Positions 20,651 through 33,913 of a stretch of 64,000 nucleotides of DNA are shown here, one piece after another; position 1 is the first letter of the stretch; each line of letters opens with the position of its first letter. Both the position numbers and the translations under genes were made by a program. Origin of the DNA: Olsenella porci. Lineage in GTDB: Bacteria; Actinomycetota; Coriobacteriia; Coriobacteriales; Atopobiaceae. A model generated the notes under the pieces. The model saw nothing but the letters and a program-made list of their open reading frames with translations. It searched no databases and was not told the DNA's origin. The stretch is from positions 62,001-126,000 of the forward strand of contig NZ_VUNC01000007.1 of assembly GCF_009695875.1 (NCBI RefSeq), given 5' to 3'.

Positions 20651-21394
20651 TCAGCCTTGGGGGAGGGTGGCGTTGAGGATGTTCCGCGCCTCTCGCCAGG
20701 AAGGGTAGGCCGAATCGAGGAGTTCGTGGAACCGCTGGTTATGGCTCGGCTCCAAGAGGTGGCACAGCTCGTGGGCGACCACGGAGTCAAGGCAGGTCGA
20801 AGGGAGCGAGGCAAGCTCGGCGTTGATGGTGACGACGCTGGTCCGCACGTTGCACGAGCCCCAGCGAGACCGCATGTAGCGAACGCGCCAGCCGTTGCAC
20901 GCAACACCCAACCGCTCCTCGAAGGGTGGGAAGCGAGAGGGGAGCTCGGTGGAGAGCGCCCGTGCGAGCCATCGCCGCCCAAGGTCGCGCGCCAGCTCGG
21001 TATGGTTATCCGAGGACGGGAGGGATAGCAGCAGCTCGTCACCCGTGCGCCGCGCACCTGTCGCTGCCGTATCCAGCACGAGCCTGACTGTCAGTACCTC
21101 GTCGAGGAACCGGACCTTCCCTCCGTCCTGCCAACGGGAGGCCTCGCGATCGCGCGCTGCGGATTGTCTCCCCTGCTGCATGCGAATCCAGCTTTCCTTG
21201 GAGGAGACGAACGCGTCCACGTCCGAAAGCCTCGCTCGGGTGGGTGCACTGACGACCACGCTCCCGTCTGCCCTCACGCGAAGGTTGACGCGTCTGACCC
21301 CTCCGCGGCGCAGGGTGTACCGTATGTGGCCCCCCTGGCGTTCCGAAACAACGATATCAGCACGTCGCATGGCTTTCACATCGCTTCCTGCCAC
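20651..21394 (-). CDS. YgjP-type metal-dependent hydrolase (DUF45, zincin-like)
   Basis: 247 residues. The C-terminal half carries the zinc-binding motif HELCHLLEPSHNQRFHELL (HExxH plus a third His), preceded by RYMRSRWGSCNVRTSVVTINAELA, both typical of the YgjP/M48-like DUF45 group. The N-terminal half has a beta-rich segment (IRYTLRRGGVRRVNLRVRAD) and IRMQQGRQ, matching the family. E. coli YgjP is reported to act on UTP; whether this protein is a peptidase or nucleotide hydrolase cannot be said. Start codon uncertain: GTG 21394, GTG 21379 or ATG 21370. Divergent from the next gene. Confidence 0.85.
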   Translation of the reverse strand: MAGSDVKAMRRADIVVSERQGGHIRYTLRRGGVRRVNLRVRADGSVVVSAPTRARLSDVDAFVSSKESWIRMQQGRQSAARDREASRWQDGGKVRFLDEVLTVRLVLDTAATGARRTGDELLLSLPSSDNHTELARDLGRRWLARALSTELPSRFPPFEERLGVACNGWRVRYMRSRWGSCNVRTSVVTINAELASLPSTCLDSVVAHELCHLLEPSHNQRFHELLDSAYPSWREARNILNATLPQG

Positions 21395-21492
21395 CTTTTG
21401 CCTTGCCGTTTGGCCTCAAGTTGCAGCGCTGCCGTCGCGGGTGGCCGACAAACGAGGATAATGTATCTTGCAGTTTGAAGGAGGGGGGGACG

Positions 21493-22089
21493 ATGGCGAG
21501 CTCATACGGCGAGGATGCGAGCAAGAGCGCGCTTCGGGAGCGTTACCTCAGTGCGGGTGCATCGCTCTCCCCGCGGCAGCGCGCGAGGTTTGACGTGCAA
21601 GTGTGCCGCAACCTCAGGGCGGTCCCCGCCTATCGCTCCTGCCCCCTGCTTCTGGCATACGTCCCCTTTAGGGACGAGCTCGACACGACCTCCATCATTC
21701 GGCGCGCCTGGGACGAGGGGAAGGATGTTGCCCTCCCGAGGTGCGTGGGGGGCGAGAGGTCCTTGGAGTTCGTGGTCGTGCATGCCCTTGATGGGCTCGT
21801 GCGCGGGGCGAGTGGCGTCCTTGAGCCGGCTGAGGGGGCGGGGGAGCACATTGACCCCGCGCGTCTCCCCAAATCCGTGTGCCTGGTCCCGGGGCTCGTG
21901 TTCGACTCCCGCGGGTATCGCATCGGCTACGGGGCAGGATACTACGACAACTTTCTTGCCACGTACCCCGGAACCAAGGTGGGTCTTGCCAGGAGCCTGC
22001 AGGTGAGTGGCAACCCGCTTCCCGTTGACGACCACGACGTTGCCGTGGATGTACTGGTGAGCGACGGGGCGGTGTGGATGTGCCGCTAG
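21493..22089 (+). CDS. 5-formyltetrahydrofolate cyclo-ligase
   Basis: ATP-dependent conversion of 5-formyl-THF to 5,10-methenyl-THF, a one-carbon salvage step. 198 residues, normal. N-terminal KSALRERYLSAGASLSPRQR, central LLAYVPFRDELDTTSIIRRAW, VLEPAEG and the nucleotide-binding motif GYRIGYGAGYYDNFLA are the family signatures. ATG at 21493 after GGAGGGGGG. It stands alone between a divergent and a convergent gene. Confidence 0.93.
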   Translation: MASSYGEDASKSALRERYLSAGASLSPRQRARFDVQVCRNLRAVPAYRSCPLLLAYVPFRDELDTTSIIRRAWDEGKDVALPRCVGGERSLEFVVVHALDGLVRGASGVLEPAEGAGEHIDPARLPKSVCLVPGLVFDSRGYRIGYGAGYYDNFLATYPGTKVGLARSLQVSGNPLPVDDHDVAVDVLVSDGAVWMCR

Positions 22090-22114
22090 CTGGACGGTGA
22101 CCTCTCCGTCCAGC

Positions 22115-23053
22115 CTACTGCTCGTCTTCCTTGGCCAAATGTGCCGCCAGGTCCGCGATCGCCTTGGCGTAGCCCTTTATCCCCAGTCCCATGACCGTCT
22201 CGAAGCAGGCCGCCCTGACGTACGAGACCTGCCTGAACCCCTCGCGCTCGTCCACCTTAGAGATGTGGACCTCAACCGCGGGGATGCTCACCGCCTTGAG
22301 GGCGTCGAGGATGGCGACGGAGGTGTGGGTGTAGGCGCCGGGGTTGATCACGATGCCATCAAAGCGCCCGTAGGCGTCCTGTATGGCATCGACGAGGTCA
22401 CCCTCGTGGTTTGACTGGTAGCACCTGCAGACGGAGAAGCCCTCTTCCTCCGCCGCCTCGTGGCAGAGCTCCAGCAGGCTGGCAAAGTCCTCGGTCCCGT
22501 ACAGGTCGGGCTCCCGAATCCCCAGCATGTTGATGTTGGGCCCGTTGAGCACGAGGAGACGGGGTCCGTCCGCGGAGTCGTCCGTCTCCTCGCTGGCCTC
22601 GTCGGCAAAGTCGTCGTCCGGATCATTCTCCGCGTCGGCGAGCATCCGCTCGAGCTCACGCGCCTCGGAGTCGTGGTCCTCCAGCTCCTGCGCAATGGCG
22701 CCAGGGGTGGGCCGGGCGGGTGTCGTGGATCCGGTTACGCGGACATTGAGCGAGTTCCCCCCATGGCTGAGGTCTGCGAAGCTCGAGCGGTCCGTCTGAC
22801 CCTGGCTGGTGAGACCCGAGAACGCGTCGTAGATGCCCCCGATGGACTTGGGGCCAAACACGACCTCGATTCCATAGGGGCCACGCCCCACCGTGCCCAG
22901 GACGCCGGGAATCTGCGAGAGCCCCTCCTCGTCGACGAGCGTGGGGTTTGCGATGGTGATGCGGAGCCTCGTCATGCAGAGGGTGTTGGAGGTGACGTTG
23001 ACGCTCCCGCCGACGCAGCTCAGTACGCGCGATGCAATTTCCTGGTCGTTCAT
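22115..23053 (-). CDS. aroQ: PTS EIIB (glucose-type) domain fused to type II 3-dehydroquinate dehydratase
   Basis: 312 residues in three parts. Residues 1-79 are a PTS EIIB domain of the glucose/sucrose family: EIASRVLSCVGGSVNV, then CMTRLRI with the phosphorylatable Cys at position 26, DEEGLSQIPGVLGTV and VVFGPKSIGGIYDAF. Residues 80-163 are a low-complexity, strongly acidic linker. Residues 164-312 are AroQ: LNGPNINMLGIREPDLYG (catalytic Tyr185), QSNHEGDLVDAI, INPGAYTHTSVA, EVHIS (His263) and REGFRQVSY. The enzyme dehydrates 3-dehydroquinate to 3-dehydroshikimate, the one shikimate step missing from the adjacent operon. ATG at 23053 chosen; a TTG 8 codons upstream is also open. I know of no role for an EIIB domain here; phosphorylation-dependent control is inference. 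Confidence 0.93.
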   Translation of the reverse strand: MNDQEIASRVLSCVGGSVNVTSNTLCMTRLRITIANPTLVDEEGLSQIPGVLGTVGRGPYGIEVVFGPKSIGGIYDAFSGLTSQGQTDRSSFADLSHGGNSLNVRVTGSTTPARPTPGAIAQELEDHDSEARELERMLADAENDPDDDFADEASEETDDSADGPRLLVLNGPNINMLGIREPDLYGTEDFASLLELCHEAAEEEGFSVCRCYQSNHEGDLVDAIQDAYGRFDGIVINPGAYTHTSVAILDALKAVSIPAVEVHISKVDEREGFRQVSYVRAACFETVMGLGIKGYAKAIADLAAHLAKEDEQ

Positions 23054-23198
23054 GAGAACAGCCTTCTTCCGTCGCAAGACGGGCCCTGGTTACTCGGATA
23101 CTTTCGAAACGAAAACGAGTATAGAAGCGCCTGCGGGCGGATGGTCCGTCCGTTCCGTGAAATGCCGGGATGGAGTCGCATGCGGGGTTGCGGGGGAA
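23054..23198. other. 145-bp gap separating aroQ from the aro operon
   Basis: Much longer than the other spacings in this cluster (all under 15 nt or overlapping). Holds the putative promoter and operator of the EIIB-AroQ gene. Confidence 0.6.
23102..23123 (-). promoter_or_regulatory. Putative -10 and operator of the EIIB-aroQ gene
   Basis: On the minus strand TATACT (23123-23118) matches the -10 consensus at 5 of 6; no good -35 is seen 17 bp upstream. Immediately downstream is the perfect dyad TTTCG-AAA-CGAAA (23102-23114), where transcription would begin. Start codon about 50 nt further on. Confidence 0.45.
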
Positions 23199-24482
23199 TC
23201 ACAGCCCCAGGATGTTCCTCACCCGCGCCGCATCGCCCTGCGGGCTGCCCGTACAGTCTATCTTGATGTCGGACCAGGAGTGATACGCCTCGGACCTCTC
23301 GCGTGCCAGCTCCCTCACGCCCCGCTCCTGAGAGATGGGCCTGCCCGCAAGGGAGAGCTGTCCCAGCGGCCGCTCCAGGAGGACGATGGTACCGTTCTGG
23401 TGGAGGAGAGGGTAGTTCTCCGGTCTGGTGACGATGCCGCCGCCGCAGGCTATCACAAGGCCGCTGCGAGCGCAGTAGCGCGATGCGACCCTCGTCTCCT
23501 GCCCCCTAAAGTCGTCGGTCCCGTTCTGGCGGATGTAGGTCTCCACCGGCATGTCGAGGTCAAGGGCGAGCGCCTCGTCCAGGTCAACGAACGGCCTGCC
23601 GAGGAGATGCGCCAGGGCCCTGCCTGCCGTCGTCTTGCCGGCACCGGGCATGCCAATGAAGACGACGTTCCTGGTTTGGTTGCGGATCCTCTCCTCCAGG
23701 CGGGGGAGAAGCGCCTTATCCAGCTCGCGGCCCTGGAACAGCTGGCTCGAGTAGAACGCCTGGGCCACGAGCATGGAAAGCCCGCTTTGGAACGGGAGCC
23801 CCAGGCGCTCCGCCTGGAGGCAGATGCCCGTGCGCTCGGGGTTGTAGACCACGTCCAACACGCCGCGAAGGTGGGGGAGGGACCCGAGCACCCCATCGGC
23901 GAGCGGGCTCGCCGGGCAGGAGGGGAACATCCCCACGGGGGTGGTGTTTACGACGAGGCTTGCGTCCGCATGCCGGTCAAGCAGGTTCGCGTAGGTGTCA
24001 TCCCCCGAGCGAGATATCACGACGGGCCTCGCGCCCGCCGCCTCGAGCGCGAGGACGACGGCCCTGCTCGCACCGCCAGAGCCTAGGACGAGGGCCTTCT
24101 CGCCCGCAAGCGCCTTGGTGGCGGCCCTTCCCAGGTGCTCCTCGCAGAATCGGTCGAGGAGCCAGGAGAAGCCCAGCACGTCGGTGTTCTCGGCAAAGAC
24201 GGAGCCGTCCGGCCTTCTCACCAGGGTGTTAGCGGCGCCGCATGCCTCTACGCGCGGGCTCCTCTCGTCCGCAAGCCTGGCCGCCTCGACCTTGTAGGGG
24301 ATGGTTACGTTGAGGCCGCGCCAGGAGCCCTCCCTCACAAAGGGGCCGACCTCCTCGGGCTCGAGCTCGATGAGGTCGTAGGGGCATGAGCCGAGCGACT
24401 GGTGGATCTGGGGAGACCAGCTGTGCCCGAGCGTCCTGCCCAGCAGGCCGAATGGCGCCATCGCCTCTCCGTCGAGCTGCAT
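23199..24482 (-). CDS. aroE/aroK: Shikimate dehydrogenase - shikimate kinase fusion
   Basis: 427 residues joining two consecutive shikimate-pathway enzymes. Residues 1-265 are AroE: GLLGRTLGHSWSPQIHQS, LNVTIPYKVEA (catalytic Lys), ENTDVLGF and the NADP motif VLGSGGASRAV. Residues 272-427 are AroK: P-loop GMPGAGKTTAG at 277-287, FVDLDEAL, ACGGGIVTRPEN and RPLGQLSLAGRP. Both active-site sets look complete. The ATG at 24482 lies 1 nt from the pheA stop (24484), so the genes are tightly coupled. The reactions are dehydroshikimate to shikimate (NADPH) and shikimate to shikimate 3-phosphate (ATP). Confidence 0.95.
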   Translation of the reverse strand: MQLDGEAMAPFGLLGRTLGHSWSPQIHQSLGSCPYDLIELEPEEVGPFVREGSWRGLNVTIPYKVEAARLADERSPRVEACGAANTLVRRPDGSVFAENTDVLGFSWLLDRFCEEHLGRAATKALAGEKALVLGSGGASRAVVLALEAAGARPVVISRSGDDTYANLLDRHADASLVVNTTPVGMFPSCPASPLADGVLGSLPHLRGVLDVVYNPERTGICLQAERLGLPFQSGLSMLVAQAFYSSQLFQGRELDKALLPRLEERIRNQTRNVVFIGMPGAGKTTAGRALAHLLGRPFVDLDEALALDLDMPVETYIRQNGTDDFRGQETRVASRYCARSGLVIACGGGIVTRPENYPLLHQNGTIVLLERPLGQLSLAGRPISQERGVRELARERSEAYHSWSDIKIDCTGSPQGDAARVRNILGL

Positions 24483-24483
24483 G

Positions 24484-25632
24484 CTAGACCACCTCCGAGT
24501 AGCTGCCCAGGTAGCGCATGTCCTCGCAGGCGTCGCCGATGGTTGCGATGAGCTCCTTGAACTGTGGTGCGGCGACGGGGCAGTCCACGTCGAAGTAGAA
24601 CATGAACTCGAAGTCGCGGTCGGGGATCGGTCGGCTCTCGAGCTTGAAGATGTTGATGTCGAGGGCATAGAACTTCTCCAGGACGTGGAACAGTGCGCCC
24701 GGGCGGTGGCTCACCACCAGCATGAGGGAGGTGCGGTCGGCCCCGGGGAACACCTGGAGGTCCTTCGAGATGCAGGCAAAGCGCGTGTAGTTGTTGCCCT
24801 TGTCCTGGATGTCGCGCGCGAGGGGGTCGAGCCCGTACAGCTCGGCGCAGGAGCTCGACGCGATGGCCGCGACGCCTGGGCGCTCGCTCCGGGCAACCAT
24901 CTGCGAGGCGATCGCGGTGTTCTCGACCACGTGGACCGTGACCCCATGGAGGGCGGAGAGGAACTGGTGACACTGGTTGATGGCCTGCTCGTGGCTGTAC
25001 ACGTCGGTGATCTCCTCCAGGCCCACGCCGGGCTTGGCGAGGAGGTTGTGGTCGATCTTGAGGCGGCAGGTTCTCACGATGCTGAAGTTGTGGCGCATCA
25101 TGAGGTCGTAGACCTGGTTGACCGAGCCCGCCGTGCTGTTCTCCACGGGGAGCACGCCGTACTGGCAAAAGCCCTCCTCGACGGCGCGGAAGACCCCGTC
25201 GAAGGTGTCGAAGAAGCTGATGTCGGCATGGTGGAAGATCCTGTCGCAGGCGATCTGCGAGTAGGCACCCTCCACCCCCTGGCATGCCACGAAGGCGTCC
25301 TGGGGGAAGAGGTTGGGCGTGGCGGAGACGGCCGACTCGATCCGCCTGACGACGTTGTTGCCCTCGGGGTCGAGCAGCCCGTGCTGCCTGTTGCGCGACG
25401 CCTCCATGAGGAGCTGCATCAGGACCTGGGCGTAGCTGCGGAGCTCGGGGGGAACCTTTGCCGCGCTGTCCTCGATGACCCTTCGCTCCCTCGAGCGGTC
25501 AAGGACCGGGAGCCCGTGAGCCGCCTTGTATGCCGCGACCTTGTCTGCGCACTCCATGCGCCTCTGAAACAGGGAGAGGATCCTGTCGTCAATCTGGTCG
25601 ATCTCTTCCCTCACCTGGCTGAGGTCCTCCAA
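24484..25632 (-). CDS. pheA: Bifunctional chorismate mutase / prephenate dehydratase
   Basis: 382 residues. An AroQ-class chorismate mutase domain (1-90: REEIDQIDDRILSLFQRRMECADKVAAYK) precedes prephenate dehydratase (about 105-285: GVEGAYSQIACDR, VLPVENSTAGSVNQVYDLM, GNNYTRFACIS) and an ACT domain (about 295-375: HRPGALFHVLEKFYALDINIFKLESRP), whose GALF and ESRP motifs bind phenylalanine in homologues, so feedback inhibition by Phe is expected. The best start is TTG at 25632, 5 nt after AAGGAGG; upstream open codons run antisense to aroC and lack similarity. Produces phenylpyruvate. Confidence 0.93.
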   Translation of the reverse strand: MEDLSQVREEIDQIDDRILSLFQRRMECADKVAAYKAAHGLPVLDRSRERRVIEDSAAKVPPELRSYAQVLMQLLMEASRNRQHGLLDPEGNNVVRRIESAVSATPNLFPQDAFVACQGVEGAYSQIACDRIFHHADISFFDTFDGVFRAVEEGFCQYGVLPVENSTAGSVNQVYDLMMRHNFSIVRTCRLKIDHNLLAKPGVGLEEITDVYSHEQAINQCHQFLSALHGVTVHVVENTAIASQMVARSERPGVAAIASSSCAELYGLDPLARDIQDKGNNYTRFACISKDLQVFPGADRTSLMLVVSHRPGALFHVLEKFYALDINIFKLESRPIPDRDFEFMFYFDVDCPVAAPQFKELIATIGDACEDMRYLGSYSEVV

Positions 25633-25645
25633 CGTATCCTCCTTG

Positions 25646-26782
25646 CTAGTTCGTGCCGAGCGTGAACTGTTCGCCCTCGGGCGGGAACGAGAGCCATGCG
25701 TCGAGGAGCGAGAGGGCGCAGACCGCCTCGGCCACGGGGACCGCCCGCGGGGCGATGCAGGGGTCGTGACGACCGTGGACCTCCAGGACCTCGGGCTTGC
25801 CCGTGGCAAGGTTGACCGAGTCCTGGGGGCGCGAGATGCTCGAGGTCGGTTTGACGGCCATCCTGAACAGGATGGGGGCGCCGGTGGTGATGCCGCCCAG
25901 GATCCCTCCCGCATTGTTCGTTCGTGGTGCCGGCCCGTCGGGAGTGGCGTCGAAGGGGTCGTTGTTCTCGCTTCCCCTGACGTCGGCGGCGGCGAAGCCG
26001 CTTCCAAACTCGATTCCCTTCACGGCTGGGATGCCAAAGGCTGCGCGGGCGACGAGGTTCTCGATCCCGTCGAACATGGGGGAGCCCACGCCGGCGGGAA
26101 GGCCGCACGCCACGCACTCCACGACTCCGCCGACGCTGTCGAGGTCCCGTCGGGCCGCGTCGATTGCGTCGAGCATGCGCTCGCCGGCATCGGGGTCGAT
26201 GGTGGGAAGGCCGTCCCTCTCCTCCAGAGCATCGATCTGTTGGGAGAGAAGCTCCGCATCGGTGCGCAGGCCCGCTCGGAAGGGTTCGTCCTCGACGCCT
26301 GCCACCCGCAGGAGGTGTGCCCTCACGCGGACGCCTCGCGTCTTGAGCATCTGGATGACGATGCCGCCCGCCACGCAGAGCGGTGCGGTGAGCCTGCCAG
26401 AGAAGTGTCCGCCGCCCGGGACGTCCTGGTTGCCGTGCCACTTCTCCCATGCGGTGAAGTCGGCGTGCCCCGGACGCGGGACCGAGAGCAGGTTGTCGTA
26501 GTCGCGGGAGCGCGTGTTGGTGTTGCGGATGACTGCCGCGAGCGGGGCCCCGCAGGTCCTCCCGTCGTGGTTGATGCCACTCACGAACTCGGGCTCGTCA
26601 GCCTCCCTGCGGGGGGTCGACCAGCTGCCCTGCCCGGGTGCCCTCCTTGCCATGAAGGCGGACAGTCGCTCCCGGTCGATCGCGAAGCCGCTGGGGAGCC
26701 CCTCGACCACGCAGCCTATCGCCTCCGAGTGCGACTGGCCAAACACGGTGACCCTGAGGGCGTTGCCAAAAGTGGAGGGCAT
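25646..26782 (-). CDS. aroC: Chorismate synthase
   Basis: Converts 5-enolpyruvylshikimate 3-phosphate to chorismate using reduced FMN. 378 residues. Signatures: GNALRVTVFGQSHSEAIGCVVEG, RRAPGQGSWSTPRREAD, RPGHADFTAWEKWHG, GGGHFSGRLTAPLCVAGG and VKPTSSISRPQDSVNL. The start ATG at 26782 lies 4 nt after the aroA stop and the gene ends 13 nt before the pheA TTG, so it is in the operon. Nothing is missing. Confidence 0.97.
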   Translation of the reverse strand: MPSTFGNALRVTVFGQSHSEAIGCVVEGLPSGFAIDRERLSAFMARRAPGQGSWSTPRREADEPEFVSGINHDGRTCGAPLAAVIRNTNTRSRDYDNLLSVPRPGHADFTAWEKWHGNQDVPGGGHFSGRLTAPLCVAGGIVIQMLKTRGVRVRAHLLRVAGVEDEPFRAGLRTDAELLSQQIDALEERDGLPTIDPDAGERMLDAIDAARRDLDSVGGVVECVACGLPAGVGSPMFDGIENLVARAAFGIPAVKGIEFGSGFAAADVRGSENNDPFDATPDGPAPRTNNAGGILGGITTGAPILFRMAVKPTSSISRPQDSVNLATGKPEVLEVHGRHDPCIAPRAVPVAEAVCALSLLDAWLSFPPEGEQFTLGTN

Positions 26783-26786
26783 CTTA

Positions 26787-28109
26787 CTACTCCCAACCTT
26801 CCGTGACGTTGCCCCCCAGCGCCGCGAAGTCGGCGAAGAAGGCGGGATACGACTTTGAGACGCAGCCGGAGTCGTGGATGGTGGTGGGGCCTGCGGCGCC
26901 GGCGGCCGCGACCGCCGCCATCATCGCGATCCTGTGGTCGTTGCGGGCGTCCACCTCGCCTCCGGTTAGACGGGAAACGCCTTCCACGACAAGCTCGTCG
27001 CCATCTATGGACACGTTGGCGCCTAGGGCGTTGAGCCCGTCGCGAACGGTCACCAGGCGGTCTGACTCCTTCAGGCGCAGCCTCCCCGCGTTTATGAACC
27101 GCGTGGTGCCCTTGGCGGTCGCGGCGACCGCGGCGAGGGGAGGGACGAGGTCGGGGATGTCCGCGACGTCGATGGTGCGGCCCCGAAGGGCGTCGTGGGT
27201 GCAACGCGCGCTGTCCCCGCCCCGGGTGACGTGCGCGCCAAACGAGGCGAGGGCGCCGAGCACCGCCCTGTCACCCTGCGAGCTCGAGAGGTCCAGCCCC
27301 GTCACCGTGACCCCCTCCCCGCAGGATGCGCCGGCCGCGAGCCAGAAGGCAGCGTTTGACCAGTCACCCTCCACCGAGGCGACGCCGGGCGAGACGAGCT
27401 CCGAGCCGGCGGGGACCGAATAGCGCGTGACGGCGGCGTTACCGTGCACCTCGCGCTCGACGGATACGTGCACGCCAAACTTCGCAAGGGAGCTCACGGT
27501 GATCGCTACGTAGGAGCGCGACTGCATGGGTTCGGCGACCTCGACGTCGAGACCACCCAAAACGAGCGGGGCGGCCATGAGGAGTCCGCTCACAAACTGG
27601 GATGACACGTCGCCGGGGAGGCGGTAGGTGCCGCCCGAGATGGGACCCTGCACCCGAAGCGGGAACGTCCCCTGCGGGGAAAGCCTTGCCCCGTGTGCCA
27701 CGAGCTCCTCGAAGAGGGGGGAGAGCGGGCGCTGGGCGAGACGACCGTGACCGGTGAGGGAGCAGGCTCCGCCCAGGGCGGCAACGACCGGGAGGAGGAA
27801 TCGGATCGTCGAACCGGACTCCCCGCAGTCGAGGGTCGCGCCCTCGGTCGGGCGCGGTGTGCCGCCGTCCCTGGGAAGGGGGTTCACCCTGAACCCGCGC
27901 GAGGTCCTCGCGACGCGCGCGCCGAGGGCGCGCATGCAGTCGGCGGTCGCCTCGATGTCGCGCGACGTGGTCTCGCAGTCCAAGTCGAGCCGTCCCTCGC
28001 AGAGCGCGGAGAGGATGAGCATGCGGTGCGCCACCGACTTGGACGCGATGGCGGGAATCGTTCCCGCCAGCGGGGCGGGCTGGATGACGGCGTACCTCTT
28101 CTCTCCCAT
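26787..28109 (-). CDS. aroA: 3-phosphoshikimate 1-carboxyvinyltransferase (EPSP synthase)
   Basis: Transfers enolpyruvyl from PEP to shikimate 3-phosphate. 440 residues. Motifs: ASKSVAHRMLILSALCEG near residue 22, LDCGESGSTIRFLLPVVAALGG (the PEP-binding GxSGTxxR-type segment, here GESGSTIRF), QFVSGLLMAAPL, and LRLKESDRLVTVRDGLNALG; DARNDHRIAMM near the C-terminus. ATG at 28109 shares one base with the aroB stop (TAATG), implying translational coupling. A longer open frame upstream is antisense to aroB and ignored. Confidence 0.96.
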   Translation of the reverse strand: MGEKRYAVIQPAPLAGTIPAIASKSVAHRMLILSALCEGRLDLDCETTSRDIEATADCMRALGARVARTSRGFRVNPLPRDGGTPRPTEGATLDCGESGSTIRFLLPVVAALGGACSLTGHGRLAQRPLSPLFEELVAHGARLSPQGTFPLRVQGPISGGTYRLPGDVSSQFVSGLLMAAPLVLGGLDVEVAEPMQSRSYVAITVSSLAKFGVHVSVEREVHGNAAVTRYSVPAGSELVSPGVASVEGDWSNAAFWLAAGASCGEGVTVTGLDLSSSQGDRAVLGALASFGAHVTRGGDSARCTHDALRGRTIDVADIPDLVPPLAAVAATAKGTTRFINAGRLRLKESDRLVTVRDGLNALGANVSIDGDELVVEGVSRLTGGEVDARNDHRIAMMAAVAAAGAAGPTTIHDSGCVSKSYPAFFADFAALGGNVTEGWE

Positions 28110-29224
28110 TACGCTCCCACCCCGCAACCCAGGTCGACGAGCCTGCCGAACTCCGCGAGGGAGACGTGCCTCACCTCGACGGAGCCGATCGCAAGGGGGA
28201 CCACGACGTTGACACCGTCGCCGTGGCGCTTCTTGTCGTGCGTGGCGTACGAGACGATGAGGTCGTGGGGGAGGTCGGTGTCGGTGGGGAGCCCGTGCGC
28301 ACGCACCAGCGCCTCGATCCTTTGGGGCACCTCCTGGCCGCACCAGCCCATCCCGTAGGCGGCGCGCGCGATGCAGCACATGCCCAGCGCCACGCAGCTG
28401 CCGTGACCAAGGGAGAAGTCGCCCGCCGCCTCGACCGCGTGCCCTATTGTGTGGCCAAAGTTGAGAATCTGGCGCAGGCCGTGCTCGCGCTCGTCGCTGG
28501 CCACCACGTCGCGCTTGATCTGCACGTTCCTCGCGACGACCCGTGCCAGCTCGTCCTCGGAGACCTCGCCGGTGAGGGGGTTTGCCTCGAGCCAGGAGAA
28601 GAGCTCGGGGTCGCGTATGACGCCATGCTTGATTACCTCGCCGCAGGAGTCCCTGAACAGCTCCGGCGTGAGCGTGTCGAGACAGTCCACGTCGGCGACC
28701 ACCAGCCACGGCTGCCAGAAGGCACCGCACAGGTTCTTCCCCGCCTCAAGATCCACTGCGGTCTTGCCGCCTACCGACGAGTCGACCATCGCAAGGAGCG
28801 AGGTGGGGACCTGCACCAGGCTGATGCCCCTCAGGTACAGCGCCGCGGCGAGCCCGGCCATGTCGCCCGTCACGCCGCCGCCCACTGCCACGACCACGTC
28901 GTCGCGCGTGAGGCCGGCCTGCGCCAGGCCGCCAAGGAGCTCCTCCACGGTCGAGAGGCGCTTGTTCCTCTCGCCCGCCTCGAATATCTGGATGCAGGCG
29001 TCGTAGCCTGCGGCAACTAGGGACTGGGCAACGGCGTCTGCGTAGAGCGGTGCCACGTTGGAGTCCGACACCACGCAGGCTCGGCCGCCCCCGCACGCCT
29101 GGCGCGCGAGCTGGCCGACCTCGTCGATCACGCCCTCGCCCACCACCACGTCGTAGTCGCGCTGGCTCGTGGGGACGCGCACCACGATGGGCTTCCCCTC
29201 GACGCCGACAGTCGTCTGGCTCAT
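28109..29224 (-). CDS. aroB: 3-dehydroquinate synthase
   Basis: Converts DAHP to 3-dehydroquinate, NAD and divalent-metal dependent. 371 residues. Visible: DDVVAVGGGVTGDMAGLAAALYLRGI, QVPTSLLAMVDSSVGGKTAVDL, AGKNLCGAFWQP, and metal ligands in GHTIGHAVEAAGDFSLGHGSCVALG. Overlaps the tyrA stop by 4 nt (ATGA at 29221-29224) and the aroA start by one base. Confidence 0.97.
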   Translation of the reverse strand: MSQTTVGVEGKPIVVRVPTSQRDYDVVVGEGVIDEVGQLARQACGGGRACVVSDSNVAPLYADAVAQSLVAAGYDACIQIFEAGERNKRLSTVEELLGGLAQAGLTRDDVVVAVGGGVTGDMAGLAAALYLRGISLVQVPTSLLAMVDSSVGGKTAVDLEAGKNLCGAFWQPWLVVADVDCLDTLTPELFRDSCGEVIKHGVIRDPELFSWLEANPLTGEVSEDELARVVARNVQIKRDVVASDEREHGLRQILNFGHTIGHAVEAAGDFSLGHGSCVALGMCCIARAAYGMGWCGQEVPQRIEALVRAHGLPTDTDLPHDLIVSYATHDKKRHGDGVNVVVPLAIGSVEVRHVSLAEFGRLVDLGCGVGA

Positions 29225-30093
29225 CGGTCCTCGACCTCCCTCTTCCTGCGATCGCCGTCCGCGAGCAGACCCTGGAGCCGCTCCGCGTCACGGTCGTCTA
29301 TCGCGTCCTTGTACTCTTGGAGGTGCCCTATCAGGTTTCCTATCTCAAAGCTCAGGTTGTCCGCGTTGTCAAGGAACAGCTCGGTCCACATGCGTGCGTT
29401 GAGGCGTGCCACCCTGGTGAGGTCCCGGTACGAGCCGGCGGAGAAGCCCTTGTGCACGGTGCAGGAGGGGCTCTTGACGTAGGCGTTGGACACCACGTGG
29501 GCAAGCTGCGAGGTGAAGGCGATCACCTCGTCGTGGTGCTCGGGGGTCGACAGGGTCATGCTGCCAAAGCCGCAGGGCTCCAGCAGCTGCTCCAGGCGCT
29601 CGAGCATGTCCGCCCGCTCGAAGTCGTCCATCTTGGGTGGCACCACGACCATGGGCGCGTTGTGGAACATGTTCGCCCTGCTGTGGGCAAAGCCCGAGTA
29701 CTGGGTTCCCGCCATGGGATGGCAACCCACGAAGGTCCAAGGCCTCCCCTCGGCGATCTTGAAGCAGCGCTCGCAGATTACCCGCTTGACGCCCACGGTG
29801 TCGATCACGATCGCTCCGGGGGAGAGGATGTCCGCCATCTGGACGAGCCAGTCGATGGACACCTGGGGGTATCCCGCCAGGATTATCAGTTCGCAGGTGG
29901 GGACCACGTCGTCCGTGAGCTCCCCGTCGATGGTCTCGATCTCGGCGAGCTCGGTCACCGAGTGCGTCCTGTTCCAGCCGTACACCTCGCGGCCTCCCGC
30001 GTGGAGCGCCTTGGCAAACGACCCGCCCATCAGGCCGAGCCCCACGATGCCAACGCGACCGGGCACGAGCGCCGTCTTCTTCTCTTCTCCCAT
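29221..30093 (-). CDS. tyrA: Prephenate dehydrogenase
   Basis: NAD(P)-dependent oxidative decarboxylation of prephenate to 4-hydroxyphenylpyruvate. 290 residues, the short form without ACT or chorismate mutase domains. Rossmann motif VGIVGLGLMGGSFAKAL, ADILSPGAIVIDTVGVK, GCHPMAGTQYSGF with the catalytic His, and TPEHHDEVIAFTSQLAHVVSNAY. Lies 5 nt after the aroF stop. Together with pheA it gives both branches of the aromatic pathway from one transcript. Confidence 0.95.
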   Translation of the reverse strand: MGEEKKTALVPGRVGIVGLGLMGGSFAKALHAGGREVYGWNRTHSVTELAEIETIDGELTDDVVPTCELIILAGYPQVSIDWLVQMADILSPGAIVIDTVGVKRVICERCFKIAEGRPWTFVGCHPMAGTQYSGFAHSRANMFHNAPMVVVPPKMDDFERADMLERLEQLLEPCGFGSMTLSTPEHHDEVIAFTSQLAHVVSNAYVKSPSCTVHKGFSAGSYRDLTRVARLNARMWTELFLDNADNLSFEIGNLIGHLQEYKDAIDDRDAERLQGLLADGDRRKREVEDR

Positions 30094-30098
30094 GGCAC

Positions 30099-31118
30099 CT
30101 AGTCCAAATCTGCCTCGACGGCGGAGCGGATGAGCGAGATGCGCCTCATGGCGTCCGAAAACTGCGTGGGCGTGAGCGCCTGCGCGCCGTCGGAGAGGGC
30201 GTTCTGCGGGTCGTCGTGGACCTCCATCTCAAGGCCGTCTGCACCCGCGGCGGTAGCGGCATACGCGATGGGGCGCACGTAGCGGGTGTAGCCGGTGGCA
30301 TGGCTGGGGTCAGCAATGATGGGGAGGTGCGACAGGTGGTGGACCACCGGGATCGCGTTAGCGTCAAAGGTGTTGCGGGTGCGGGTCTCGAAGGTCCTGA
30401 TGCCCCGCTCGCACAGGATCACGTTGGGGTTGCCCTCGCTCATCACGTACTCGGCGGACATCAGGAACTCGTCGATGGTGCAGCCCATCCCCCTCTTGAG
30501 GAGCACGGGGGCGTTCGTCCTGCCAAGCTCCCTCAGCAGGGGAAAGTTCTGGGCGTTCCTCGTGCCCACCTGCAGAACGTCAACGCCCCTGTCGAGGAAG
30601 CCCTCCACGTCGCGCGGGTCCATGACCTCGCTCACCACGGGCATGTCGAGCGAGTGGCCAACCTCGCAGAGGAGCTCCAGGCCCCTCTCGCCCATGCCCT
30701 GGTAGGAGTAGGGGCTGGTGCGGGGCTTGTAGGCGCCGCCGCGAAGCATCGTCGCCCCCGCCTCGTGCACGCCTCTGGCAATGTCCCAGAGGTTGTCCCC
30801 CTCCACGGAGCAGGGGCCGGCTATCACCTGGAAGTTGCCCCCGCCCAGCAGGACGCCGTGCCCGCAGTCGACGACCGTGTCCTCGGGATGAAACTTTCTG
30901 TTTGCCTTCTTGAAGGGCTCGGAGACGCGCCTGACCTGGTCCACGATGTCCATGGACTCGAGCAGGAAGGGGTCGATCTTGGTCGTGTCCCCAATTATCC
31001 CCACGATGGTTTCGTTCTCGCCCCGCGAGACGTTTGTCTTGAACCCTCGTCCCTCGATCCAAGAGACGAAGTGGTCAAGCTGGTCAGGCGTGGCGCTGTC
31101 CTTGACGATTGCAATCAT
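30099..31118 (-). CDS. aroF: DAHP synthase (type I-beta)
   Basis: First committed step: PEP plus erythrose 4-phosphate to 3-deoxy-D-arabino-heptulosonate 7-phosphate. 339 residues. A ferredoxin-like regulatory domain (1-70, MIAIVKDSATPDQLDHFVSW ... GDTTKID) precedes the TIM barrel: VIAGPCSVEG, LRGGAYKPRTSPYSYQG, VLLKRGMG, VILCERGIRTF and IADPSHATGY. The N-terminal domain in homologues binds aromatic amino acids, so end-product control is likely. First gene of the eight-step aro operon; no attenuator or T-box was recognised in its leader. Confidence 0.97.
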   Translation of the reverse strand: MIAIVKDSATPDQLDHFVSWIEGRGFKTNVSRGENETIVGIIGDTTKIDPFLLESMDIVDQVRRVSEPFKKANRKFHPEDTVVDCGHGVLLGGGNFQVIAGPCSVEGDNLWDIARGVHEAGATMLRGGAYKPRTSPYSYQGMGERGLELLCEVGHSLDMPVVSEVMDPRDVEGFLDRGVDVLQVGTRNAQNFPLLRELGRTNAPVLLKRGMGCTIDEFLMSAEYVMSEGNPNVILCERGIRTFETRTRNTFDANAIPVVHHLSHLPIIADPSHATGYTRYVRPIAYAATAAGADGLEMEVHDDPQNALSDGAQALTPTQFSDAMRRISLIRSAVEADLD

Positions 31119-31291
31119 GAGCTGTGGTCTCCCTGCGGCCTTTTCGACCCCGTGTTTATGGCATATATCCTCGGGATGCTACTACAACCCCCATCGTAAC
31201 TTTGGATGGGTCAACAGGAGGAAACAATGGTGGCCGGGGGAGAAACAACAAAACCCGCCCCCATTGGTGGGGACGGGTTTCTCGCGAGCCA
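31119..31291. other. Leader region of the aro operon and tRNA-Arg terminator
   Basis: Between aroF and the tRNA. A small inverted repeat CCCATC/GATGGG (31190-31210) lies about 80 nt before the aroF ATG. I could not fix a convincing promoter; TATATG on the minus strand near 31165 is a possible -10. Confidence 0.4.
31251..31280 (-). terminator. Terminator of tRNA-Arg
   Basis: On the minus strand AAACCCGTCCCCA pairs with TGGGGGCGGGTTT around a 4-nt loop, then TGTTGTTTC. It begins 12 nt after the tRNA 3' end. Confidence 0.85.
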
Positions 31292-31368
31292 TGGTGACCC
31301 CAGTGGGGCTCGAACCCACGACCTTTCGCTCCGGAGGCGAACGCTCTAATCCACTGAGCTATGGGGCC
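31292..31368 (-). tRNA. tRNA-Arg (anticodon CCG)
   Basis: 77 nt on the minus strand including an encoded CCA (31292-31294). Acceptor stem GGCCCCA/TGGGGTC with one G-T pair, discriminator A, D-arm TAGCTCAGTGG, anticodon arm TTCGC-CTCCGGA-GCGAA with CCG at positions 34-36, T-arm GTGGGTTCGAGCCCCAC. Reads CGG, a common Arg codon here. Confidence 0.97.
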
Positions 31369-31486
31369 GATAGGAGATTATAGCGAAAACGGGTGCCCTG
31401 GGAAGGGCGTTGGGTATGCTGTTCTGGTGACGGCACGCCACCTCGGCGGGCTTGGGATTCCGACGGTGGTCGGGGAGGGGAGACGC

Positions 31487-33913
31487 ATGGAACGGGACTC
31501 TCGGGCCGCCCAAGGCGAGCGTGATGGCCTCACGTCTGCCGAGGTGGAGGAGCGACGTCGTGCCGGGCTCGTCAACGTCGACGTCCTCGCGCGCACCAAG
31601 TCGGTCCCGCAGATCCTCGCCGATCACATCCTCACCCTCTTCAACGCCGTCAACCTCGCCCTGGCGGTCCTTGTGTGGACGACGGGGCAGTATCGCAACA
31701 TGCTCTTTGTGGGAGTAGTGCTCTCCAACCTGGTGGTGGGGACGTTTCAGGAGATACGGGCCAAGCGGCTCGTCGACGCCCTGAGCATCGTCACCGCGAG
31801 CCGTGTCCGCGTGAGGCGCGACGGGCGCGAGCGCGAGGTCGCTCTCGACGAGCTCGTGAGGGACGACCTTGTGCTGGTGTCGCGGGGCGACCAGGTCCCC
31901 GCGGACGGGACGGTCGTGTTTGGCATCGCCACCGCAAACGAGGACCTCCTCACGGGAGAGAGCGCCCCGGTGGAGAAGGTCGCTGGCTCCGAGCTCCTTT
32001 CTGGCTCCTACCTCGACTCCGGAAGCGTCGAGTACCGGGTCACCCGGGTTGGCGCGGAGGGCTATGCCGCCAGGATCAGCTCCGAGGCCAAGCGGTGGAG
32101 GCCCCCGACCTCAGAGATCAGCGACACCCTCTCCTCGATCATCCGCCTCGCCACCTACGCCCTCATCCCCCTTGGGCTCGGGCTCTTCCTCCGCCTCCTG
32201 CTCTCGGGGCGCTACGACTACGACGGCGCGGTGCTCCAGGCAGTCGCCGCGGTCGTCGGGATGATCCCGCAGGGGCTCGTCCTCCTCACCTCGGGCGTCA
32301 TGGCTATCGCCACCACGCGCCTCGCCCGTCGCAAGGTCCTCGTGCAGCAGAGCTACTGCGTCGAGACGCTCGCCCGCGTCGACGTGCTGTGCCTCGACAA
32401 GACCGGCACGCTCACGTCGGGGAGGATGGAGGTCTCGTCCGTAGTGCCCTGCGAAGGCGTCGAAGCGGAGGACCTCGAGGCGGCGTGCGAGACGGTCATG
32501 GAGGCAAACCGCTCCGATGCCAACGAGACGGCGCGTGCCCTCCTCGCCCACGCCGACTCCGAGGGCGTGCGGCCCCTCTCCTTCGTTAGGGGCATACCCT
32601 TCTCGTCTGCCACCAAGCTCTCTGCGGCGGTACTTCCCGATGGCGGATGCCTCGTGGTCGGTGCCCCACAGTTCGTCCTGCGCGACCAGCTCGAGGCCAT
32701 TCGCGGGGAGGTCGACGCGTTCGAGGCGGTCGAGCGCGTGCTGTGCGTCGCCCGCGCGGATGGGCTCGACGCCATGGGCGTCCCCGAGGGTGTGGTCGTC
32801 CCCCTCGGCTTCGTCGCCCTCCGCGACCAGATGAGGGAGAACGTGCGCGAGACTGTCGCGTTCTTCTCCTCCCAGGCGGTTTCGCTCAGGGTCATATCTG
32901 GCGACGATCCCCGCACCGTCTCCGCCATAGCGGCGCGTGCCGGCATCCCGGGGGCGGACAGGGCGGTCGACGCCTCGCGGCTCGACCCCGGCGCGCTCCC
33001 AAACGAGGTCGACGATGCCGTGGTGTTCGGGCGCGTCACGCCGCAGGTGAAGAGGGCCCTCGTGGCGAGGCTTCGGGCGCGCGGCCACGTGGTTGCCATG
33101 ACCGGCGACGGCGTCAACGACGTCCTTGCCCTCAGGGAGTCAGACTGCGCCATCGCCATGGCGTCGGGCTCCGCCGCCACGCGCAACGTTGCCGACATCG
33201 TGCTTGCCGACAACGACTTTGCACGCATGCCCGAGGTGGTCGCAGAGGGCAGGAGGTCCATCAACAACCTGCAGCGCTCCGCCGCCCTCTTCCTCACAAA
33301 GACCGTCTACTCGGCGGTCCTCGCGCTCATCAGCATCCTCATTCCACCCTACCCGTTCATCCCCATACAGATGTCGCTCATCTCGTCCGCCGTCATCGGG
33401 GTCCCCTCGTTCGTACTCGCCCTCGAGCCCAACCACGACAGGCTCCGCGGAACCTTCCTGGGCAACGTCCTCTCCCGGTCGATGCCCGCCTCTGCCGCCA
33501 TCGCCTGCGGCCTCCTCGCCGCCATGGTCATGGCGAGGGCGTTCGACTGGAGCGACGCGCTCCTCTCCACTGTGAGCATGATCGTCATGGCGGCGGTCGG
33601 CATTGCCCTCATTGAGCGCCTCTCTCGTCCCCTCACCCCGCTCAGGGTCGTCCTCCTCGCGTTCTCCACGTCCTACGTCCTCCTGGGAGTCACCGTGTTT
33701 CGCGACTTCTTCCGCGTTGCCCCGATGGATTACATCACGGGAATAGTTTGTGCGGTCACGGTAGCCTGCGCCATAATCCTGTTCGAGTTTCTGTACGCGA
33801 AGCGCGAACTTTGGTCTGAGGAGTCGCCCTTTGGCAGGGCGCTCTCTCGGGGAATGGAGATGCTCGATGGCAGCAGAGGAAACGCGGGGGGAGTTCGCGG
33901 CCGCCGTTCGTGA
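31487..33913 (+). CDS. P-type cation-transporting ATPase, CtpE-like
   Basis: 808 residues. Actuator motif LLTGESAPVEK, phosphorylation site CLDKTGTLTSG, nucleotide domain SSATKLSAAV, hinge MTGDGVNDVLALRESD and about 8-10 hydrophobic segments: a complete P-type ATPase. It most resembles the CtpE subgroup (Ca2+ uptake in mycobacteria), but the M4 motif usually written PEGLVLLTS reads IPQGLVLLTS, with Gln for the Glu of the ion site. ATG at 31487 is preferred, following GGGGAGGGGAG; the frame is open upstream into the tRNA. It overlaps the aconitase gene by 47 nt. Transported ion cannot be fixed by sequence. Confidence 0.9.
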   Translation: MERDSRAAQGERDGLTSAEVEERRRAGLVNVDVLARTKSVPQILADHILTLFNAVNLALAVLVWTTGQYRNMLFVGVVLSNLVVGTFQEIRAKRLVDALSIVTASRVRVRRDGREREVALDELVRDDLVLVSRGDQVPADGTVVFGIATANEDLLTGESAPVEKVAGSELLSGSYLDSGSVEYRVTRVGAEGYAARISSEAKRWRPPTSEISDTLSSIIRLATYALIPLGLGLFLRLLLSGRYDYDGAVLQAVAAVVGMIPQGLVLLTSGVMAIATTRLARRKVLVQQSYCVETLARVDVLCLDKTGTLTSGRMEVSSVVPCEGVEAEDLEAACETVMEANRSDANETARALLAHADSEGVRPLSFVRGIPFSSATKLSAAVLPDGGCLVVGAPQFVLRDQLEAIRGEVDAFEAVERVLCVARADGLDAMGVPEGVVVPLGFVALRDQMRENVRETVAFFSSQAVSLRVISGDDPRTVSAIAARAGIPGADRAVDASRLDPGALPNEVDDAVVFGRVTPQVKRALVARLRARGHVVAMTGDGVNDVLALRESDCAIAMASGSAATRNVADIVLADNDFARMPEVVAEGRRSINNLQRSAALFLTKTVYSAVLALISILIPPYPFIPIQMSLISSAVIGVPSFVLALEPNHDRLRGTFLGNVLSRSMPASAAIACGLLAAMVMARAFDWSDALLSTVSMIVMAAVGIALIERLSRPLTPLRVVLLAFSTSYVLLGVTVFRDFFRVAPMDYITGIVCAVTVACAIILFEFLYAKRELWSEESPFGRALSRGMEMLDGSRGNAGGVRGRRS

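Follow-up and report, generated by a model that had tools for sequence, protein, structure and literature searches.

What sets one gene of a tightly packed shikimate cluster apart from its neighbours, and what controls it? In the window, by which we mean the whole 64,000-nucleotide stretch of Olsenella porci DNA that was analysed, the gene in question encodes an EIIB domain fused to a dehydroquinase, and it is preceded by a gap in which the following features lie.

22115-23053, minus strand: EIIB-aroQ, an EIIB domain (PF00367) with a putative phospho-acceptor-type cysteine (Cys26), fused to a class II dehydroquinase (PF01220); ATG at 23053
23054-23198, minus strand: gap between aroE-aroK and EIIB-aroQ, the putative control region, 145 bp
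23062-23067, minus strand: likely ribosome-binding site AGAAGG, 8 nt 5' of the ATG, as judged from the sequence
23102-23114, no strand assigned: TTTCG-TTT-CGAAA dyad, judged to be chance
23118-23123, minus strand: TATACT -10 element, conserved (63/93 distinct gaps)
23155-23164, minus strand: downstream copy of the box, CATTTCACGG, 8/10 to CCGYTYRCSG, 21 bp past the upstream copy and ahead of TATACT by 31 nt
23176-23185, minus strand: upstream copy of the box, CCGCATGCGA, 8/10 to CCGYTYRCSG, 52 nt before TATACT
23199-24482, minus strand: aroE-aroK fusion, adjoining the gap on its upstream side; its stop ends at 23199

The sequence-only reading of this stretch had contrasted the 145 bp before EIIB-aroQ with the other junctions of the cluster, and both halves of that contrast hold: the gap runs from the ATG at 23053 to the aroE-aroK stop end at 23199, and the remaining aro junctions overlap or are shorter than 15 nt (5, -4, -1, 4, 13 and 1 nt along aroF-tyrA-aroB-aroA-aroC-pheA-aroEK). 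At the other end of the cluster, a terminator-like hairpin with a T-run is found on the minus strand at 31250-31281 of the window, between a tRNA gene (31295-31368) and aroF. The comparison was made with a family of 140 genomes, which we infer from locus names (Olsenella, Atopobium, Parafannyhessea, Atopobiaceae) to be the Atopobiaceae, and the EIIB-aroQ protein was matched in 132 of them (E up to 1e-20). Upstream gaps were taken from 114 loci and later from 20 more. The gap is 96 to 375 bp long in relatives (93 distinct gaps), and we judge its presence to be more than chance. At one locus (L187) aroEK and EIIB-aroQ are 1278 bp apart, and the intervening DNA resembles a decayed insertion.

A -10 element had been proposed within the gap, and TATACT is indeed in place at 23123-23118 on the minus strand. 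It occurs in 63 of 93 distinct gaps (a count that leaves out L139 and L140, which have no aroEK match, L008, L035, L018 and L153, and further copies of a gap already counted), against 1.5 expected and a maximum of 5 among 200 shuffle sets, with one occurrence on the reverse strand and none in the final 160 nt of the aroEK coding sequence. The other 30 of these gaps are without TATACT, which is also absent from L008 and L035, where no aroEK is adjacent; in 24 of 41 gaps lacking TATACT, a more loosely matching -10 stands in a phased position, a count taken without a control set. Two bases 5' of TATACT, 88% of weighted gaps have a C and the window has a T. Compared with a standard sigma70 promoter, the -10 hexamer is present and the -35 hexamer at 16-18 nt is missing: no TTGACA-like hexamer lies 15-19 nt upstream of the TATACT of the window, none is conserved in the weighted profile of the relatives' gaps, and a promoter scan of positions 21000-31500 did not return the TATACT site among its predictions. 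As TATACT has no -35 partner, an activator would most likely be needed.

The sequence-only reading had put forward an operator at the expected start point, TTTCG-AAA-CGAAA, to which a repressor would bind. The perfect 5+3+5 dyad does exist at that point (minus strand 23114-23102), and its exact string has no second copy in the genome (2.36 Mb); this uniqueness is no test of function, and the expectation of 0.01 calculated for the dyad refers to an exact string picked after being seen. Such dyads come easily to a sequence of this composition, as 14% of 1000 dinucleotide-shuffled versions of the window gap contain a perfect 5+3+5 dyad and 77% of 1000 contain at least one perfect dyad with 5-bp arms and a spacer of 0-10 nt. 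Just 3' of TATACT, a 5+3+5 dyad is found in 1 of 68 gaps, that of the window itself, where 0.8 are expected, and similarity to TTTCGNNNCGAAA across 109 gaps is that of shuffles. Conservation in relatives, the check proposed for the dyad, is thus lacking at the level of the family, which is the level at which it was judged because the genus of the window is represented by one genome in the comparison. We therefore reject the dyad as an operator, and a repressor acting through it is highly improbable, although an operator peculiar to the species is conceivable.

A motif search upstream of TATACT, from which L187 and L190 were excluded, points to a different element. It returned a 10-bp box, CCGYTYRCSG, with a log-likelihood of 168; two shuffled sets, run with fewer starts than the real set, gave 22 and 30. 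At a score of at least 9 the box is present in 80 of 109 gaps, compared with 11 when the opposite strand of these gaps is scored (107 and 38, respectively, at a score of at least 6). The motif search took no account of distance to TATACT, and 108 of 116 box sites (score of at least 6.5, at most 109 nt upstream of TATACT) lie at 29-31, 40-42, 51-53, 61-63 or 82-84 nt from it, these five distance ranges having been picked after seeing the list. The commonest place is 40-42 nt; in 56 of 68 gaps, a box precedes TATACT by 39-43 nt. Extra copies are found 21 bp upstream of the main box in 36% of weighted gaps, 42 bp upstream in 26% and 12 bp downstream in 29%, with few elsewhere. The -10 element, the box, its phasing and the 21-bp pairing are accordingly conserved features of these gaps. 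The window itself carries a degenerate version: its two boxes lie 52 and 31 nt from TATACT, not at the commonest distance of 41, and an in-phase pair as good as this was matched by 3 of 4000 shuffles. A higher-scoring single match, CCGCCCGCAG, lies 7 nt from TATACT, outside the usual place. On these comparisons, the upstream direct-repeat box appears a better candidate for the operator than the dyad.

Could the boxes nonetheless be neutral, or form the tail (3' end) of the transcript from aroEK, with EIIB-aroQ mainly read through from the aro cluster? The gene order would allow it, since aroEK is on the same strand and in the same order in nearly all loci examined, and no intrinsic terminator is predicted in the gap. 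The phasing of the boxes, however, follows the -10 element and not the aroEK stop, and TATACT with two boxes (at 41 and 29 nt) persists in L018, where the aroEK stop is 1285 bp away. An Rfam search of the gap was without match, and the predicted fold of the window leader is no better than shuffles (z 0.87). We consider read-through improbable as the main source of EIIB-aroQ expression. The conserved -10 element and the phased element upstream of it, both kept in L018, make a well-supported case that EIIB-aroQ has its own promoter, as the sequence-only reading had supposed, and with such a promoter the gene would be controlled separately from the other genes of the cluster. In loci of genus g33 (L019 and others), a near-invariant 5' leader, GGAGACGGGGCTCC...CTCGCGATTCGACGACGGGAAGGGTCGCGAC, precedes a GTG start in 27 leaders; hairpins are predicted in it, one of which encloses the ribosome-binding stretch.

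The paired box is not confined to this locus. Across the 140 genomes of the family, MCGYTYRCSG-N11-MCGYTYRCSG is matched 139 times, in 69 of them. The reversed pattern, which is the fairer control as 21 is a multiple of 3, is matched 28 times; with N16 as spacing, there is 1 match, and 13 for its reversed control. Two other families of the same order differ in this respect. The first, f10 (perhaps the Coriobacteriaceae), has 231 pairs, spread over 61 of 65 genomes, where the reversed pattern has 24, and the second, f2 (perhaps the Eggerthellaceae), has 11 pairs, in 11 of 89 genomes, where the reversed pattern has 23. The genome of the window has one exact pair (L288), seemingly within a coding frame, and 45 of the 130 paired sites retrieved (nine sites, from G057, G058 and G059, were left out) run through a long open frame. 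A rule based on length and GC content assigned a downstream gene to 123 of these 130 sites and none to seven, and 39 representatives from 58 clusters of the downstream proteins were scanned. Among the genes found behind the pairs are those for GntR-UTRA regulators (13), PLP enzymes (11), IlvD/Edd proteins (11), PTS EIIBC (7), solute-binding proteins (4), amino acid permeases (4), LacI (4), GalT-like proteins (4), GH3-like proteins (3), EIIA-Man (2) and EIIC (2 more), along with single genes for PGI, PEPCK, triosephosphate isomerase, an amidohydrolase, DeoR and others. PTS genes make up 11 of 123, a raw count given without a background rate. The proposal that copies of the operator would be found before PTS genes thus fails for the dyad, unique as it is in the genome, and succeeds for the direct-repeat box. 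Since paired boxes recur before PTS, glycolysis and sugar-uptake genes, EIIB-aroQ would join a carbon/PTS regulon. No earlier description of such a regulon surfaced in the portions of the literature that our search brought up.

The promoter arrangement at EIIB-aroQ does not appear to extend to these sites in the same way. No fixed distance to a -10 element was seen at the other paired sites (130 sites), and a box with TATACT at 40-42 nt, tried as a genome-wide pattern, is not enriched (25 matches, 7 of them EIIB-aroQ, against 22 for the reversed pattern). Many of these matches precede genes, but TATACT itself favours promoters, and we do not count this as evidence. In four genomes of genus g9 (L204-L207), a box 40 nt before TATACT precedes an ArsR-like gene.

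Which regulator might read these boxes? Helically phased sites are known from activator-dependent sigma70 promoters such as the CRP class I promoters, where the distance from site to -10 likewise steps by the helical turn; the box described here differs in being a direct repeat, not a palindrome. A closer layout is that of LytTR regulators. Passages of PMC4847170 describe LytTR sites as a pair of repeats, each 9-11 nt long, around a spacer of 11-13 nt, and the YpdB site at yhjX given there is a GGCATTTCAT pair 21 bp apart, as counted from the oligonucleotide; the part of PMC2766830 on SilA gives a 10+11 layout, and that of PMC6193735 on LRS operons reports a strong bias of the repeats towards a place some 10 bp ahead of the -35. 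The boxes of the family, 10 bp with 11 nt between, have this layout both at the locus and genome-wide, the pair in the window being degenerate. As far as these sources go, the boxes resemble those of YpdB, SilA and HdrR (PMC4847170, PMC2766830, PMC6193735) in being two direct repeats of similar length and spacing upstream of a promoter, and differ from them in their GC-rich sequence CCGYTYRCSG, in occupying several phased places, in the lack of a recognisable -35 and in also occurring as pairs spaced by 12 bp. A place 29-31 nt from the -10 would fit the LytTR spacing; the commonest, 40-42 nt, with the -35 absent, is shifted upstream by about one turn from the place described in that part of PMC6193735, 10 bp ahead of a -35.

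Candidate proteins are available throughout the family. LytTR domains were found in 139 of 140 genomes. The genome of the window has five, among them that of a REC-LytTR protein placed after a sensor of the His_kinase family in which GAF is matched marginally; similar best matches elsewhere suggest that the same sensor/REC-LytTR pair is probably universal. A second LytTR protein of this genome, with a SnoaL-like N-terminal half (below the cut-off), adjoins the sensor-regulator pair (L269:5695-6501). Eight genomes of genus g33 have a single LytTR match, with boxes near 29 and 41 nt in the seven whose gap was read, so that a LytTR factor, if such it is, would have to be that one there. A regulator of another kind could bind the same direct-repeat region. 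AraC-type half-sites, for example, can be 21 bp apart, and an AraC-type gene lies behind one paired site (L320); the GC-rich box points the same way, as does its commonest place, which is about a turn more distant from the -10 than that reported for LytTR boxes. The LytTR consensus used for comparison is reportedly that of Nikolskaya and Galperin. Against a regulator of another kind, the length of the repeat and of its spacer fits LytTR sites, and genes for LytTR, the regulator family that was counted, are present in 139 of 140 genomes. We regard a regulator of another type as a possibility to be kept in mind, short of an even chance.

The reading that we prefer joins these elements, and we give it a probability of about 0.68. 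The gap would carry a dedicated promoter for EIIB-aroQ, at which an activator would bind direct repeats of CCGYTYRCSG, ending about 30, 41, 52, 62 or 82 nt upstream of the -10 and commonly 21 bp apart. The likeliest regulator would be a LytTR-type response regulator, and the expression of EIIB-aroQ would go with the carbon/PTS regulon, not with that of the shikimate genes.

Such control raises the question of which part of the fusion it serves. The PF00367 match scores 36.4 bits, against a curated cut-off of 27, and the cysteine of the EIIB site (Cys26) is kept in 114 of 114 loci (loci, not genomes). With its match above the cut-off and its conserved Cys-x-Thr-Arg motif the domain resembles the EIIB domains of the glucose-family PTS (PF00367), from which it differs in being without EIIC, and fused to dehydroquinase or, in five relatives, alone. 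In a search of the order, all of the matches listed outside the family begin at query residue 148 or later, so that those matches are without the EIIB part. The five relatives are genomes of genus g35 (G131, G135, G137, G122 and G139; L174-L178) in which a gene for EIIB and the linker stands alone after aroEK. No class II dehydroquinase match was found in these five; a class I dehydroquinase is encoded elsewhere in four, and the fifth, which is 73% complete, has neither class. Their gaps, of 180-205 bp, have a box (8.7-13.2 bits), no TATACT and a looser -10 at 41 nt. Since EIIB is retained alone in five relatives, four of them with a class I enzyme encoded elsewhere, it is apparently EIIB that is conserved in the fusion, and it may be the part whose expression matters.

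The aromatic pathway consumes PEP, and a tentative, rather unlikely extension of our reading is that EIIB-aroQ would serve the shikimate pathway as an arm that reports on the PTS. Phosphorylation of the EIIB cysteine would signal to the aromatic pathway the extent of PEP use by the sugar PTS, and the amount of EIIB-aroQ would be set by an undescribed, box-marked regulon read by a LytTR two-component system. If this were true, the lone EIIB of genomes in which the dehydroquinase was replaced would be a trans-acting regulator. In any case, an EIIB kept without its enzyme offers a direct experimental handle on the role of this domain. A chance dyad gives way to a testable control element common to two families of one order, which suggests a carbon regulon and would link the synthesis of aromatic amino acids to a signalling domain of the PTS.
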